This document shows, in pieces, positions 5,795 through 30,986 of a stretch of 36,080 nucleotides of DNA. The notes under the pieces were generated by a model. That model saw only the letters and a program-made list of their open reading frames with translations, was not told the origin of the DNA and ran no database searches. Source of the DNA: Desulfobacteraceae bacterium (lineage in GTDB: Bacteria > Desulfobacterota > Desulfobacteria > Desulfobacterales > Desulfobacteraceae); NCBI GenBank assembly GCA_003353855.1, contig PIVS01000005.1, positions 1-36,080 of the forward strand, given 5' to 3'. How positions within the stretch are numbered: the first letter of the stretch is position 1; each line of letters begins with the position of its first letter. Both the position numbers and the translations under genes were made by a program.

Positions 5795-6265
5795 ATGACG
5801 CCGGCTATACAAAAGATGAAAAAAAACAAAATACCATTTACCCTCCATGAATATGACCATGACCCAATCGTTCGGGCATATGGAGAAGAGGCTGCCAGGA
5901 AACTGGGTATTGCCCCGAACCAACTATTTAAAACCCTTGTTGTTTCAACGGACAACAGAGGACTTGCGGTGGGGGTGGTACCGGTATCCGGACAGCTGGA
6001 CCTGAAGGCAATTGCCAAAGCTCTGAAGGCAAAAAAGGTGGCAATGGCGGAAAAAAAACAGGTGGAACGATCCACAGGCTATATTTCAGGGGGTATTAGT
6101 CCCATTGGACAAAAAAAACAATTGCCAACCATTATTGATGCATCGGCATTGGATCTTGATATTATTTTTGTCAGTGCCGGCCGCCGGGGACTGCAGGTTT
6201 CCCTTTCTCCAAGGGATATAGCCGATCTGACCCGGGCAATATTCCATCCGATATCCAAAGAATAA
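5795..6265 (+). CDS. ybaK: YbaK-family Cys-tRNA(Pro)/Cys-tRNA(Cys) deacylase
   Basis: A 156-residue protein, close to the usual length of YbaK. It removes cysteine wrongly attached to tRNA(Pro). The YbaK/EbsC fold is visible from the N-terminal TPAIQKMKKNKIPFTLHEYDHDP through FKTLVV, with the conserved Lys at residue 46 (the catalytic Lys position in the family), GQLDLKAIAKALKAKKVAMA, and the GGISPIGQKKQLPTIID loop. The ATG at 5795 is chosen because it has AAGGGA upstream and matches the family start; the longer frame from 5672 is not supported. It stands alone on the plus strand, with the DUF1456 gene 156 bases downstream. Confidence 0.9.
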   Translation: MTPAIQKMKKNKIPFTLHEYDHDPIVRAYGEEAARKLGIAPNQLFKTLVVSTDNRGLAVGVVPVSGQLDLKAIAKALKAKKVAMAEKKQVERSTGYISGGISPIGQKKQLPTIIDASALDLDIIFVSAGRRGLQVSLSPRDIADLTRAIFHPISKE

Positions 6266-6421
6266 AGCCTTGGGGTATGAATATGGGTCTATCAGAGCAC
6301 TTTGATTATTTATTTTTTCATGGTAGACTGAATTCATCATAAAAGGTACCAAGACAATCTGCCCGGTGCGTCACCGTGACATGAATTGTGACATAATTTT
6401 AGTTTTGAGAAGGGAAATAGT

Positions 6422-6886
6422 ATGACCAATAATGATATTCTGCGTCGCATTCGCTATATTTTTGATTTGAGCGATTCGAAAATGATTGATGTGTTTGGCC
6501 TGGCAGATCTCCAGGTAACCCGAAGCCAGATCAGCGATTGGCTGAAAAAAGAAGATGACCCGGCATTCCAGGAATGCAGCGATGCCCTTTTGGCTGTTTT
6601 TCTAAATGGGTTGATCAACGATAAAAGGGGCAAGAAAGAGGGGCCTAAGCCCAGTCCAGAGCAAGTATTAACCAATAATATCATTTTCAGAAAATTAAGA
6701 ATTGCCTTGGATCTGAAAACCGATGACATCATTGAGATCATGGGGCTGACGGATGTGCGTATCAGCAAGCACGAGCTAAGTGCATTTTTCAGAAAGCCGG
6801 ATAACAGACATTACAGGGGATGTAAAGACCAGGTTTTGCGTAATTTTTTAAAGGGTGTTCAGAAAAAATATCGTCCTGGAATTTAA
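6422..6886 (+). CDS. yehS: DUF1456 family protein (YehS-like)
   Basis: A 154-residue protein with two similar halves of about 70 residues. The first begins NNDILRRIRYIFDLSDSKMIDVFGLA and the second NNIIFRKLRIALDLKTDDIIEIMGLT. Each is followed by an S-x-L/W-x-(R/K)K pattern (SDWLKKEDDP and SAFFRKPDN). This duplicated helical arrangement is the hallmark of DUF1456/YehS, a cytoplasmic family of unknown molecular function. The ATG at 6422 has AAGGGAAA at good spacing. The next gene starts 16 bases after the stop, so the two are probably co-transcribed. Confidence 0.9.
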   Translation: MTNNDILRRIRYIFDLSDSKMIDVFGLADLQVTRSQISDWLKKEDDPAFQECSDALLAVFLNGLINDKRGKKEGPKPSPEQVLTNNIIFRKLRIALDLKTDDIIEIMGLTDVRISKHELSAFFRKPDNRHYRGCKDQVLRNFLKGVQKKYRPGI

Positions 6887-6901
6887 ACTTAAAGGGAGAT
6901 A

Positions 6902-7213
6902 ATGATGAGCCTTTATTGGACGAGTGTTGAGTTTGATATTGTGGATCCTTCGGCCTATGAAAATTGTGTGGGCGGTTTTGTCTATTTGTTTTTAAAAGCC
7001 AGGGATGTTAGGGAAGCCATTCCTGAAATTGAAAAAGCCATTGAAGCAGAAGGCCTTAAGATCGATACCATTGAATTTGTGGCCCAGTATGATGAAATTC
7101 CCTGGGATTCAAAAGAAGAACAAATTCAATATGATTCATTGGCCAGACAAGCAAAGGAGAGTGAAGAGGTTGTCTGGGACGAAATAGTTGCCTATGAATC
7201 AAAAGATGAGTAA
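6902..7213 (+). CDS. Small acidic unknown protein
   Basis: A 103-residue, strongly acidic protein beginning MMSLYWTSVEFDI. It has one cysteine, no signal peptide and no membrane segment. It has an N-terminal strand, a segment FVYLFLKARDVREAIPEIEKAIEAEG that looks like a strand followed by a helix, and an acidic tail. I do not recognise a family. The upstream site AAAGGGAGATA supports the start at 6902, or the second ATG at 6905. It sits between yehS (16 bases) and the epimerase gene, whose first in-frame ATG overlaps its stop, so the three genes form an operon. Translation through this gene should feed the repeated starts described for the next gene. Confidence 0.7.
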   Translation: MMSLYWTSVEFDIVDPSAYENCVGGFVYLFLKARDVREAIPEIEKAIEAEGLKIDTIEFVAQYDEIPWDSKEEQIQYDSLARQAKESEEVVWDEIVAYESKDE

Positions 7214-7265
7214 AATAAAGATGAGTAAAATAAAGATGAGTAAAATAAAGATGAGTAAAATATTG
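7206..7265 (+). repeat. Four-copy 15-bp tandem repeat carrying start codons
   Basis: The unit ATGAGTAAAATAAAG occurs at 7206, 7221 and 7236, with a fourth copy at 7251 ending TTG instead of AAG. Each unit is five codons (MSKIK), so all four ATGs are in frame with the epimerase gene. The first copy includes the TAA stop (7211-7213) of the upstream gene. Copy-number change by slippage would leave the reading frame intact but alter the number of start sites. Confidence 0.95.
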
Positions 7266-8171
7266 ATTGCCGGCGGATCAGGTTTTGTGGGGAAATATCT
7301 TGCAAACCGCTTTCTTTTTGAGGGCTTTTCTGTAACCGGTCTGGGCACCTCTGTGCACCATCCTTTTGAGCATCAATCTGGACAGCAATTTGAAAATTTT
7401 AAATGGATCAGTGCCGATACCTCAAGGGAAGGGGGCTGGCAGGAGGATGTATCAACTGCAGATGTGGTGATTAATCTGGCAGGTAGAAATATTCTTAAAC
7501 CATGGACAAAAAAATACAAACAGGCAATCTATAATTCCAGAATTATGACCACAAAGCATCTGGTGGATGCCATGGAAAAAACAAAGCCGGTCAAACTCTT
7601 GAACGCATCGGCGGTGGGGTATTATGGTGATCAGGGTGAAACACTATTGTCTGAGACAAATCCGGGCGGATCTGATTTTTTGGCAAAGGTGTGCAGAGCC
7701 TGGGAAGAGGAGGCCCTTAAAGCGGTAAATAAAGAGGTGCGGGTCTGTCTCATGCGGTTTGGTGTGGTGCTGGGGAATGAAGGTGCCCTGTCTGTTATGA
7801 CCCCGGCTTTTAAATGGTTTGTCGGAGGGCCCCTGGGTAACGGACGCCAATGGTTCCCCTGGATACATATCCATGATTTGTATCGGGCCGTTAAATTTCT
7901 CATGGATGATTCAGAACTTGAGGGTATCTTTAATTTTACAGGGCCGGGGCTGGTGCGGCAAAAAGAGTTTTCAACGTTATTGGGGCGGGCGCTGAACCGG
8001 CCGGCCATCTTGCCGGCACCGGCTTTCATGGTGAAGCTTCTCATGGGAGATCTGGGATCTTCCCTGCTCCAGAGCCAGAAAGCTCTTCCCCAAAGACTGG
8101 CAGAACTGGGATTTGGATTTAATTTCAAGACTCCCGGGGATGCCCTGGCCGATATTTTTAAAAAACCATAA
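7206..8171 (+). CDS. TIGR01777 family NAD(P)-dependent epimerase-like protein
   Basis: A short-chain dehydrogenase/epimerase-fold protein of the TIGR01777 (YfcH/SulA-type) family. The dinucleotide motif GGSGFVG follows directly after the last repeated Met. Further family marks are DVVINLAGRNI, the LLNASAVGYYGDQGE active-site region with its Tyr-Tyr-Gly, the RFGVVLGNEGALSVM strand and the PWIHIHDLYRAV segment. There are four in-frame ATGs at 7206, 7221, 7236 and 7251. The last gives the length usual for the family, while the first overlaps the upstream stop and gives 15 extra residues (MSKIK three times). I list the longest; which is used is not decidable here. A SRPBCC-fused paralogue lies at 22352-23725. 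The substrate is unknown. Confidence 0.88.
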   Translation: MSKIKMSKIKMSKIKMSKILIAGGSGFVGKYLANRFLFEGFSVTGLGTSVHHPFEHQSGQQFENFKWISADTSREGGWQEDVSTADVVINLAGRNILKPWTKKYKQAIYNSRIMTTKHLVDAMEKTKPVKLLNASAVGYYGDQGETLLSETNPGGSDFLAKVCRAWEEEALKAVNKEVRVCLMRFGVVLGNEGALSVMTPAFKWFVGGPLGNGRQWFPWIHIHDLYRAVKFLMDDSELEGIFNFTGPGLVRQKEFSTLLGRALNRPAILPAPAFMVKLLMGDLGSSLLQSQKALPQRLAELGFGFNFKTPGDALADIFKKP

Positions 8172-8289
8172 AAATCTCTTCCATGGGGTCTTTAAATTTT
8201 TAAAATTTTGGTATACAATTTGCTTATTTAAATAATTTATTTTTAAAAAGATAAATACTAATTAACCCCCAACCAGGAGGAAAACCAAC

Positions 8290-8751
8290 ATGAAATTCGG
8301 ATCAGTTGATGAAATACTAACCTTTGCCATTGATAGAGAAAAAGAAGCGGTTGAATTTTATGCGTCCCTTGCAAAGGAGGCAACCCATGCCTCCCTCAAG
8401 GAAACCTTTGTAAATTTTTCAAAGGAAGAGGAAAAACATGTGACCCTTCTATCCGATATTTCCGGCAACAAAGAAAAAATTGGTTCCTATAAATTTAAGA
8501 AAATTACGGATCTTAAAATCAGCGACTACATGGTCGAAAAAGAATATGAAGAAGGTATGCCAATGCCTGAGATTTTGAAACTTGCCATGAAAAAGGAAGA
8601 GGTTGCGGTTAAGCTTTATAAAGATCTTGCCAACCAGACAGAAAACGAAGATGCCAAAAAAGTTTTTCTGATCCTTGTACAGGAAGAAGCCAAGCACAAA
8701 CTTGGCCTTGAAACTATGTATGACGATTACCTGGCTGACCAGGATAATTAA
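8290..8751 (+). CDS. Rubrerythrin-type ferritin-like diiron protein, no rubredoxin domain
   Basis: A 153-residue four-helix protein. Two helix pairs each supply carboxylate and histidine ligands: REKEAVEFY with KEEEKHV in the first half and KKEEVAVKLY with QEEAKHK in the second, the ExxH-type pattern of rubrerythrin diiron sites. The rubredoxin-like C-terminal domain of classical rubrerythrin is absent, as in the shorter ferritin-like relatives. Such proteins reduce peroxide or bind iron in the cytoplasm of anaerobes. A very good ribosome site (CCAGGAGG) precedes the ATG. The stop codon lies inside the first unit of a 12-bp tandem repeat. The gene appears monocistronic. Confidence 0.9.
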   Translation: MKFGSVDEILTFAIDREKEAVEFYASLAKEATHASLKETFVNFSKEEEKHVTLLSDISGNKEKIGSYKFKKITDLKISDYMVEKEYEEGMPMPEILKLAMKKEEVAVKLYKDLANQTENEDAKKVFLILVQEEAKHKLGLETMYDDYLADQDN

Positions 8752-8794
8752 TCAGGCAATTAATCAGGCAATTAATCGGGCAACTAACCGGATA
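8747..8794 (+). repeat. 12-bp tandem repeat over the ferritin-like gene stop
   Basis: The unit ATTAATCAGGCA is present at 8747 and 8759, with one change at 8771 (ATTAATCGGGCA) and a more diverged copy at 8783. The first copy contains the TAA stop of the ferritin-like gene. Function unknown; replication slippage is the simplest origin. Confidence 0.9.
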
Positions 8795-14463: not shown

Positions 14464-14496
14464 GTCTATTTTTTGCTTCTATATTTAAAAATAGAC
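14464..14496. repeat. Inverted repeat, 10-bp arms
   Basis: GTCTATTTTT at 14464-14473 is perfectly complementary to AAAAATAGAC at 14487-14496, with a 13-base spacer. The right arm is the first copy of a tandem repeat, so each later copy could also pair with the left arm. It lies in the 338-base divergent gap (14263-14600) between the glutaredoxin and korA genes, where no gene is seen. Confidence 0.85.
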
Positions 14497-14536
14497 TAAA
14501 AATAGACTAAAAATAGACTAAAAATTAGATTAAAAA
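14487..14536. promoter_or_regulatory. Phased A-tracts (11-bp period), probable curved DNA upstream of korA
   Basis: A5 runs start at 14487, 14498, 14509 and 14520, exactly 11 bases apart, and a fifth starts at 14532. The first three belong to an exact repeat AAAAATAGACT and the fourth to a diverged copy. A-tracts in helical phase bend DNA, and the stretch ends about 65 bases before the korA start, where it could act as an upstream promoter element or protein-binding site. Curvature is known for such patterns; the regulatory role is inferred. Confidence 0.6.
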
Positions 14537-22351: not shown

Positions 22352-23725
22352 ATGGCAGATCGGATATATACAAAAAAAACCACAATCAATGTACCGGTTG
22401 AACAATTGTTTGCCTGGCATGCCAGAAACGAGGCCATTCTTAGGCTGACTCCGCCCTGGACACCCCTTAAACTGATTTCCCGGAAAGGCCACGGAATCGA
22501 TAAAGGCGTCCAGGTCCGGTTCCAGATGAGCCTGTTTAAAATCCCAATGATCTGGGAAGCCGAGCATATAGATTACCAGGAAAATGTCCTTTTCAAGGAT
22601 CACCAGACAAAGGGGCCCTTTGGTAAATGGGTTCATACCCACCTGTTCCATGCCCAGGGTAAAAATTATTCCATTATGGAGGATCGGGTGGCCTTTAAAC
22701 TGCCCCTGTCTTTTTTGAGTCTTCCCTTTTACGGCCATGCCAAAAAGCAATTGGCAAGGGTCTTTGATTACCGTCATCGGGTATTGAAGCATGACCTGGA
22801 ACATCGGGCAGACAAAGTTAAAAAACAGCGAATCATGATTTCCGGTGCCAGCGGCACCATAGGGTCGATTCTGGTGCCTTTTTTGCGTACCTGCGGACAC
22901 GAGGTGATCCGCCTGGTCCGAAACCAGTCAAACCTGGCCGATGATGAACTTTACTGGGACCCCTACAAAAATATCCTGGATATGGAAAAAGCCGGGCCCA
23001 TTGACGGAGTGATCAATTTGAACGGAGTGGATATATCCAGGGGCAGATGGACGGACAAGCAAAAGCGGTTGATCATTGATTCCCGGGTAATTCCCACAAC
23101 CTTTTTGACTGAAAAAATCAGTGAGATGGAAAAACCCCCATCGGTGTTTATCTCCTCCTCTGCCATTGGATTGTACGGAGACGGTAAGGATCGGGTGCTC
23201 ACGGAAAATGAGGAAAAGGGTGACTCCTTTATTTCCTCTGTTTGTGACCAATGGGAGGCAGCCTCTTTAAAGGCGGAAGCTGCAGGTATTCGAACAGTCC
23301 AGCTGCGTATCGGGGTGGTCCTGACCCCGGCCGGCGGTGCCCTTGCCAGGATGATGCTGCCCTTTTCCCTGGGGCTTGGCACCCGGCTGTCCCATGGCAA
23401 CCAGTACATGAGCTGGATCAGCATGGATGATGCCCTGGGCGGAATCCTCCATGTCCTGGAAAACCGAGCCATTAAAGGGCCGGTCAACCTGACTGCCCCC
23501 CATCCGGTTACCAATAAAGAATTTGCCCGTTCCCTTGGCAGAGTATTCTCACGGCCGGCATTTTTTGTCATTCCCCGGTGGCTGGCCATGGGGTTGTGGG
23601 GGACTATGGGAAAAGAGACTCTTTTGACCTCTGCCAGGGTGGTCCCTGAAAAATTGGTCAAAAGCGGTTTTGTTTTTGAGCACAATGACCTGGCCCCGGC
23701 ATTGAAAGATATGCTGGGAATGTGA
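22352..23725 (+). CDS. SRPBCC domain fused to TIGR01777 epimerase-like domain
   Basis: A 457-residue two-domain protein. Residues 1-150 are an SRPBCC/START-like ligand-binding domain (TTINVPVEQLFAWHARNEAILRL, with GPFGKWVHTHLF and a YSIMEDRVAFKLP strand). From about 160 comes a TIGR01777 dinucleotide-binding domain with ISGASGTIGS (165-171), GVINLNGVDISRGRWT, VFISSSAIGLYGDGK and LRIGVVLTPAGGALARM. This fusion is known in several bacterial groups, but its substrate is not established. The 7206-8171 gene is the epimerase domain alone. The start at 22352 has AAAGAGATATC. It may head an operon with the membrane protein and phosphoesterase that follow. Confidence 0.88.
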   Translation: MADRIYTKKTTINVPVEQLFAWHARNEAILRLTPPWTPLKLISRKGHGIDKGVQVRFQMSLFKIPMIWEAEHIDYQENVLFKDHQTKGPFGKWVHTHLFHAQGKNYSIMEDRVAFKLPLSFLSLPFYGHAKKQLARVFDYRHRVLKHDLEHRADKVKKQRIMISGASGTIGSILVPFLRTCGHEVIRLVRNQSNLADDELYWDPYKNILDMEKAGPIDGVINLNGVDISRGRWTDKQKRLIIDSRVIPTTFLTEKISEMEKPPSVFISSSAIGLYGDGKDRVLTENEEKGDSFISSVCDQWEAASLKAEAAGIRTVQLRIGVVLTPAGGALARMMLPFSLGLGTRLSHGNQYMSWISMDDALGGILHVLENRAIKGPVNLTAPHPVTNKEFARSLGRVFSRPAFFVIPRWLAMGLWGTMGKETLLTSARVVPEKLVKSGFVFEHNDLAPALKDMLGM

Positions 23726-30308: not shown

Positions 30309-30986
30309 ATGATAGAAAGCTTAAACGCGATAAAAGAATCTTTGCCCTATCTTCTCCAGGGGGGTGTGATCACCATGGTGATTGTGATGGGTGCCATGGG
30401 GCTGGGACTGATTCTGGGGCTTTCCATGGCCGTGGGGCAGGTTTACGGCCACCCGATCCTTAAACGGCTTATAGGTGTTTACATCTGGTTTTTCCAGGGG
30501 GTCCCGATTCTGGTTCTCCTTTTCCTGTTTTATTTCGGGCTGTTCAATTACATTGGACTAAACTTAAGCGCTGTTGCCGCGGTCATGGTGGTTCTTGGAA
30601 TGACCACGGCGGCTTACCAGGCAAACATATTCAGGGGGGGCATTCTTTTACTCCCCCAAGGCCAGTTTAAAGCAGCCAGCGCCATCGGTATGAGTGATTT
30701 TCAGGCGATTACCACCATCATACTTCCCCAGGTATTGCGTCTGTCCATACCAGCCTGGTCCAATGAATTTTCCATTGTCCTGAAGGACTCGGCCCTGGCA
30801 TTTGTCCTGGGCGCACCGGAAATCATGGCCCGGGCCAAGTTTATTGCCTCCCGGACCTACCAGCACCTTCCCATGTACATTATTGCTGGACTCATCTATT
30901 TTGCCCTGACATGGGCCGGTGTCAGGGCCCTGTCAAAACTGGAAAAAACTATCAGAATACCCGGCTATTCGAATAAAGGAATGTAA
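30309..30986 (+). CDS. Amino-acid ABC transporter permease 1
   Basis: A 225-residue HisM/GlnP-type inner-membrane permease with about five hydrophobic segments. VYIWFFQGVPILVLLFLFYFGL is the family's conserved region, and the EAA loop that contacts the ATPase is visible as GMSDFQAITTIILPQVLRL. The ATG at 30309 is preferred over an upstream in-frame TTG at 30294. It works with the permease at 31744, the ATPase at 30992 and the binding protein at 29512. Only five bases separate it from the ATPase gene. Confidence 0.92.
   Translation: MIESLNAIKESLPYLLQGGVITMVIVMGAMGLGLILGLSMAVGQVYGHPILKRLIGVYIWFFQGVPILVLLFLFYFGLFNYIGLNLSAVAAVMVVLGMTTAAYQANIFRGGILLLPQGQFKAASAIGMSDFQAITTIILPQVLRLSIPAWSNEFSIVLKDSALAFVLGAPEIMARAKFIASRTYQHLPMYIIAGLIYFALTWAGVRALSKLEKTIRIPGYSNKGM

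Follow-up and report, generated by a model that had tools for sequence, protein, structure and literature searches.

How is a gene translated when its start codon, together with the preceding gene's stop codon, has been copied four times in tandem? The question is raised by a locus in a 36,080-nt stretch of contig PIVS01000005.1, hereafter called the window, from a sulfate-reducing bacterium of the Desulfobacteraceae. An initial annotation had proposed that an in-frame 15-bp repeat copies the start codon of an epimerase gene four times, and that slippage in the repeat might tune coupled translation, or create a variable N-terminal tail, in a phase-variation-like manner.

A perfect array of stop and start codons

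The repeat itself was borne out. Tandem Repeats Finder (TRF) reports a perfect 15-bp tandem array with 4.1 copies of the unit AAAGATGAGTAAAAT (period 15, 100% matches), whose score of 122 is the highest among the 20 rows for the window, and four identical units were confirmed by a script. The TRF limits, listed in Table 1 with the other features of the locus, replace the span 7206-7265 first given. All four ATGs are in the epimerase frame, which translates as MSKIK-MSKIK-MSKIK-MSKIL; the N-terminus described as repeated MSKIK thus holds that peptide three times, encoded ATG AGT AAA ATA AAG, and the last unit gives MSKIL instead. The frame of the upstream gene reads KDE*N per unit, i.e., an in-frame stop is repeated in every unit, a feature absent from the initial annotation. 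The third frame is closed. The first ATG had been said to overlap the upstream stop codon; the two open reading frames do overlap, but the ATG and the TAA share no base.

Table 1. Features of the locus. Starts are numbered along the array; spacing (nt) is to the upstream stop, and energies are for Shine-Dalgarno (SD) duplexes.
Feature	Position	Strand	Remarks
DUF1456 (PF07308) gene	6422..6886	+	PF07308 E 1e-60; 15 nt before next ORF; first of probable operon
Upstream gene, 103 aa, uncharacterised	6902..7213	+	TAA stop at 7211-7213; neighbour of epimerase across the genus
Array	7202..7262	+	AAAGATGAGTAAAAT x 4.1; each unit with upstream-frame stop TAA and epimerase-frame ATG
TIGR01777 (YfcH/SDR39U1-like) NAD-dependent epimerase family protein	7206..8171	+	321 aa from ATG 1; 306 aa from ATG 4
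8-nt ORF overlap ATGAGTAA	7206..7213	+	First start codon and upstream stop
ATG 1	7206..7208	+	Spacing -8; no SD; +0.4 kcal/mol
ATG 2	7221..7223	+	Spacing +7; only a weak GAG; -2.2 kcal/mol
ATG 3	7236..7238	+	Spacing +22; weak GAG; -2.2 kcal/mol
ATG 4	7251..7253	+	Spacing +37; SD pairing -2.2 kcal/mol; aligns with the congeners' native epimerase start

The array is real, well preserved and unusual. Chance origin is excluded, the naive expectation being about 4^-45 for any one site. Across 257,398 bases of its own genome (the window plus 40 stretches), 336,900 bases of congener G002 and 42,050 bases of congener G003, it is the sole array with a TRF score of at least 100 (at least 2.9 copies, period 6-60). 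The two-unit sequence occurs nowhere else in its own genome, where three overlapping matches are this one array. Among 128 repeat rows with a period divisible by 3 in 636 kb of the same three genomes, two had at least two in-frame ATGs at the start of an ORF: the present array and one of 2.2 copies at an ORF of 88 aa (L068). A wider search covered 86 genomes of the family, its own included, with one genome per species. The exact two-unit sequence was found in its own genome only. Of the other 85, 83 gave no match within three mismatches, and G044 and G073 gave one three-mismatch match each, which look like chance; a reversed control pattern had one hit, in G001. An exact two-unit search of viral contigs gave no matches.

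Genes of the locus

The DUF1456 gene, the 103-aa gene and the epimerase gene form a probable operon, judging from the 15-nt gap between the first two and the 8-nt overlap between the last two. The PF07308 match to the first gene was found in two stretches. The 103-aa protein had no Pfam or NCBIfam match at E 0.001, and it was found beside the epimerase in all five congeners (G001 to G005) with 74-83% identity. Its branch dN/dS was 0.08-0.39 in 11 of 12 estimates, the remaining value of 5.5 being degenerate with a dS near zero. By these comparisons the upstream ORF appears to be a genuine translated gene.

The epimerase belongs to the TIGR01777 family, with a score of 303.6 bits against a cut-off of 207.35 and a match to model positions 1-292 of 292. 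Its Pfam domains are PF01370 and PF08338, and its best sequence relatives in the PDB are 3oh8 and 4b4o/SDR39U1. With its start in the array, the protein has probably acquired a short tail of repeats. Modelling the 321-aa form on a 4-row alignment gave a poor prediction (mean pLDDT 47.3) in which residues 1-14 are below 50 and the first strand begins at residue 18, and the model gives no hint of tail structure. Desulfobacula sp. S2_67 and other Desulfobacteraceae MAGs are among the named relatives, and we accordingly regard the bacterium as a sulfate reducer resembling Desulfobacula. A second, distant epimerase match lies at 22808-23713 of the window, within a 470-aa open frame; it is 33% identical to the array's epimerase, and a similar second match is present in many of the 36 matching genomes.

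Congeners keep a spacer and a Shine-Dalgarno sequence

In all five congeners the gene order is the same and a strong SD precedes the epimerase ATG, with pairing energies of -9.9, -6.4, -8.4, -9.3 and -9.8 kcal/mol in G001 to G005, respectively. In the same order, 67, 33, 59, 67 and 145 nt of spacer separate the epimerase from the 103-aa gene, and none of the five has the 15-bp array. Farther afield, AAGGA- or AGGAGG-like sequence was seen by eye before the epimerase start in four of five more distant genomes (G022, G017, G023 and G020), the exception being G009, whose start is unsure. Duplex energies were computed with the usual bacterial anti-SD. In the window they are -4.8 kcal/mol for the DUF1456 gene, -7.7 for each of two candidate starts of the 103-aa gene, -10.3 for a ferritin-like gene downstream, and -4.6 and +0.2 for two further putative ORF starts. 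By this measure, the epimerase start is now without a usable SD (Table 1). The native start is represented by the fourth ATG, whose MSKIL aligns with the congener starts MKKIL, MKKIV, MKNIL and MGKVL. When the array is reduced to one unit, the junction looks by eye as if the region of the upstream stop had been spliced to the start of the epimerase at ATGA..AA. The 15-bp duplication, also judged by eye, has only about 1 base of flanking microhomology.

The reading that we favor, at a probability of about 0.6, is that loss of the spacer and SD fused stop and start, that the fused junction was then amplified, and that the epimerase is now translated by coupling with an MSKIK tail, the amplification having been roughly neutral. 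A deletion in an ancestor of the species would have removed the spacer along with the epimerase SD, joining two similar sequences, one around the upstream stop (GATGAATAA-like) and the other around the start of the epimerase (ATGAAAAAAATATTG-like). This fusion would have made the 8-nt stop/start overlap, and tandem amplification of the fused junction would have followed, to four perfect 15-bp copies. Deletion before amplification is the simplest order of events, because the one-unit junction looks like such a fusion and because the congeners keep both spacer and SD, and so show the likely earlier state. Spacer loss is placed by parsimony, since the epimerase tree (with G002 left out) leaves the genus as a fan without resolved branching; the SD-like sequences in four of the five distant genomes help the placement. 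The locus thus seems to catch a step in the origin of overlapping coupled genes, with spacer and SD lost, stop and start fused, and the junction amplified.

Coupled translation and the choice of start

Because the epimerase start lacks a usable SD, termination-reinitiation is the most likely route of epimerase translation, as judged from sequence. Ribosomes ending the 103-aa gene would restart at ATG 1 or ATG 2, both of which lie within the spacing of about -8 to +10 nt that PMC10666635, in the part bearing on this point, gives for coupled pairs; -8 is there among the commonest gene overlaps. In three native E. coli pairs described in that source, a spacing of +14 nt cost 40-80% of the coupling and one of +38 cost all or nearly all of it, though one E. 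coli pair tolerated 15 nt in another construct. Since coupling falls with distance in these pairs, ATG 1 and ATG 2 are predicted to take most coupled starts whatever the copy number, with the native ATG 4 little used. This dominance is not certain, because other work, cited in PMC10666635 and PMC12548453, reports a longer reach for reinitiation. Most epimerase would then carry three or two MSKIK units ahead of the native N-terminus.

The output of such coupling may be low or modest, given that SD removal hurts reinitiation in E. coli: among the pairs covered in the relevant part of PMC6728339, reinitiation was abolished in one of five E. coli pairs and cut by 60-90% in three, and it was never abolished in seven pairs of H. 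volcanii. Alternatively, expression of the epimerase could come from an unmapped promoter or from initiation at the A-rich array that needs no SD. In structure prediction the single ATG of a one-unit version has an unpaired probability of 0.46, the epimerase starts of the congeners have 0.38-0.46, and with four units the values are 0.75, 0.82 and 0.71 for ATG 2, ATG 3 and ATG 4 (up to 0.85 across analyses). The predicted accessibility of the later ATGs rises with added units and saturates at 3-4; ATG 1, at 0.47, gains nothing from the array. Amplification was probably near neutral, though a start region that is A-rich and less structured may have brought a slight advantage.

Since each unit copies a stop along with a start, the first spacing, the frame and the upstream protein stay constant at any copy number; the computed first spacing is -8 for one to seven units. 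As the initial annotation held, gain or loss of a 15-bp unit does not break the frame, and a variable N-terminal tail is the natural consequence of slippage in such an array. Slippage would alter N-terminal length and not an on/off state, and a copy-number change at two or more units should affect tail length more than expression. Of the proposed tuning of coupled translation, the role in coupling is likely; the idea of a start merely duplicated for the sake of tuning is unsupported, because the comparison with congeners indicates loss of spacer and SD, with the native start as the fourth ATG. The locus offers the design of a natural copy-number series, with constant stop-start geometry and varying restart sites and tails, suited to asking how far post-termination ribosomes reach and whether output rises with a repeated natural MSKIK start.

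The arrangement resembles the termination-reinitiation pairs treated in the pertinent parts of PMC6728339, PMC10666635 and PMC12548453 in that the genes share a strand, overlap by -8 and have a start within reach. It differs in that start and stop are here repeated four times in a perfect array, without a usable SD. Literature searches for tandemly repeated stop/start codons returned nothing on point among the titles listed, from which absence from print does not follow, and searches for Desulfobacula with tandem repeats returned nothing relevant by title.

Alternative readings

If SD loss had lowered epimerase expression, the array could be debris at a locus that is losing its function. The G002 orthologue beside the 103-aa gene is indeed broken, with 42 codons from start to stop (L052 3364-3489, G002:C217) and only pieces that match, so the genus seems able to do without the epimerase. 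In two of four trios dN/dS was also higher on the window branch (0.36 and 0.48 against 0.14-0.17; bootstrap 0.93 and 0.95), but not in the other two (0.24 and 0.23; bootstrap 0.47 and 0.58), and control genes were as noisy. Against decay, the 321-codon ORF has no internal stops and is 79-82% identical to the four intact congeners, with pairwise dN/dS of 0.15-0.24; the six pairs among those congeners gave 0.145-0.18. These comparisons point to an intact ORF under purifying selection overall, with a partial relaxation of selection possible, and we consider decay unlikely.

In simple-sequence contingency loci, slippage in a perfect run of short repeats at the gene's 5' end gives rise to phase variation. 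The present array has such repeats in such a place, and it might be a frame-safe locus of this kind, in which slippage varies how many reinitiation sites there are and how long the MSKIK tail is, and has been selected as a graded tuner of the level or a property of the epimerase. Four identical units fit recent or ongoing slippage, and the rise in predicted accessibility of later ATGs up to about 3-4 units would suit a tuner. The repeat lies in or near expression signals, but repeat number switches neither frame, promoter spacing nor start: the 15-bp unit is in frame and holds both stop and start, which leaves frame and first coupling distance fixed under slippage. The phase-variation-like tuning first suggested has weak support. 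Further, ATG 3 and ATG 4 lie at distances where coupling is weak in the native E. coli pairs described in PMC10666635. The tail also bears on the point. MSKIK is identical to the published SKIK tag, which in E. coli raises protein output at the level of translation and, as PMC10192921 reports, gave about 20-28 fold more of a test antibody fragment, independently of codons. The peptide stands directly at the start, three times in the window, but here it is natural, arising from the fusion, and any enhancement by it is putative. The congeners' MKK falls in the SKX/KKX/AKX class, which in that source also enhanced a test protein, so that a change to MSK would bring little; the cancelling of ribosome arrest proposed as the action of SKIK is disputed in what PMC11190716 reports on it. 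All told, a selected tuner is a rather improbable account.

A related reading, still less probable, makes the array a self-copying 'stop-start-enhancer' cassette: once the ribosome-binding site had gone, selection would have favored amplification of the 15-bp unit, with its stop, restart codon and MSKIK, as a way of rebuilding initiation, giving frame-safe, graded control adjustable by slippage. The array, with the coupled epimerase and repeated tail that it would make, is best taken as a side effect of spacer loss and tandem duplication. Tuning is possible but unproven, and the locus has the look of a tidy evolutionary accident, not of an established switch.

The repeated TAAAAT, which is -10-like, could also represent a new epimerase promoter, replacing one lost with the spacer. 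One weak promoter-like sequence matching at 9 of 12 positions, TTGCCT-17-TAAAAT at 7188-7216, does end in the first unit, but it is the only match to end in the array, the 15-bp period has no repeated -35, and eight such matches occur on both strands of 6200-8350 against 4.7 (sd 2.1) in shuffles, which makes a transcriptional role very improbable. That the copy number is an assembly artefact is very improbable, even in a draft genome of 1,269 contigs with 6.69% estimated contamination, as the 61-bp array is shorter than usual reads and repeat collapse alone would not give rise to a spacer-less stop-start fusion.

Arrays on stop codons in the genus

The favored reading, spacer loss followed by roughly neutral amplification, was set beside an exploratory survey of tandem arrays in the fetched DNA, using ORF-based gene proxies and TRF arrays with a score of at least 40, a period of 6-60 and at least 1.8 copies. 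Expected numbers are those for arrays placed at random on sites that touch non-coding DNA. In the window's own genome 5 of 38 arrays lay on stop codons, as did 5 of 58 in G002, 2 of 3 in G003 and 10 of 63 in G001, together 22 of 162 against about 11.2 expected. Arrays on start codons numbered 5 in these four genomes against about 10.4 expected. The stop count was reached in 1 of 200 placements for its own genome, 55 for G002, 5 for G003 and 9 for G001; G002 alone shows nothing. With a looser test, counting any overlap and placing arrays without restriction, the stop counts were 5 of 38 against 1.1 expected (own), 8 of 58 against 1.7 (G002) and 2 of 3 against 0.2 (G003). The two outgroup stretches had 0 of 46 (G014) and 2 of 37 (G020) on stops, with 1.7 and 2.9 expected. 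In this exploratory material, stop arrays look about twofold over-represented and start arrays under-represented in the genus, and not so in the two outgroup stretches; the excess is biased upward because its own sample includes the array at issue and some of the relatives' contigs were chosen for holding the locus. Stop arrays can accumulate because duplication across a stop leaves the first stop, hence the protein, unchanged. The excess fits a mostly neutral origin of the 7202-7262 array: the upstream stop would already have been fused to the start, so that a stop array became a start array.

A ferritin-like/rubrerythrin gene at 8290-8751 of the window has its own stop in a tandem array (8746-8787), whose 12-bp units each carry an in-frame stop. 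It reads DQDN*SGN*SGN*SGN* in the window, DQDS*SDS*SGS*SDS*SGN*SDK* in G004 (L049), DQDN*SDN*SDNQSGN* in G002 (L052/L109) and DQDN*SDN* in G001 (L006/L161); G003 (L050/L113) has units of about 13 bp, which do not keep the frame. Copy number thus differs between species. These arrays share with the epimerase array an in-frame stop copied in each unit with the product unaffected, and they differ in unit length, in their variation in copy number by species and in having no downstream start.

At the stop of the 103-aa gene, G001 has a degenerate 12/24-bp repeat (G001:C40, about 30890-30960; L042), GAATCAAAGGAT-GAACAAGAGGAC-GAATAAGAGGCT-..., of another unit length than the 15-bp array of the window. 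Lag analysis at this stop was clear in G001 (best lag 24, reached in 0 of 1000 letter shuffles) and not above shuffles in G002, G003, G004 and G005 (247, 991, 486 and 372 of 1000). A genus-wide repeat hotspot at this stop was rejected, since only G001 of the five stood above shuffles. A further tandem array in the window, at 14486-14536, has 4.5 copies of the 11-bp unit TAAAAATAGAC.
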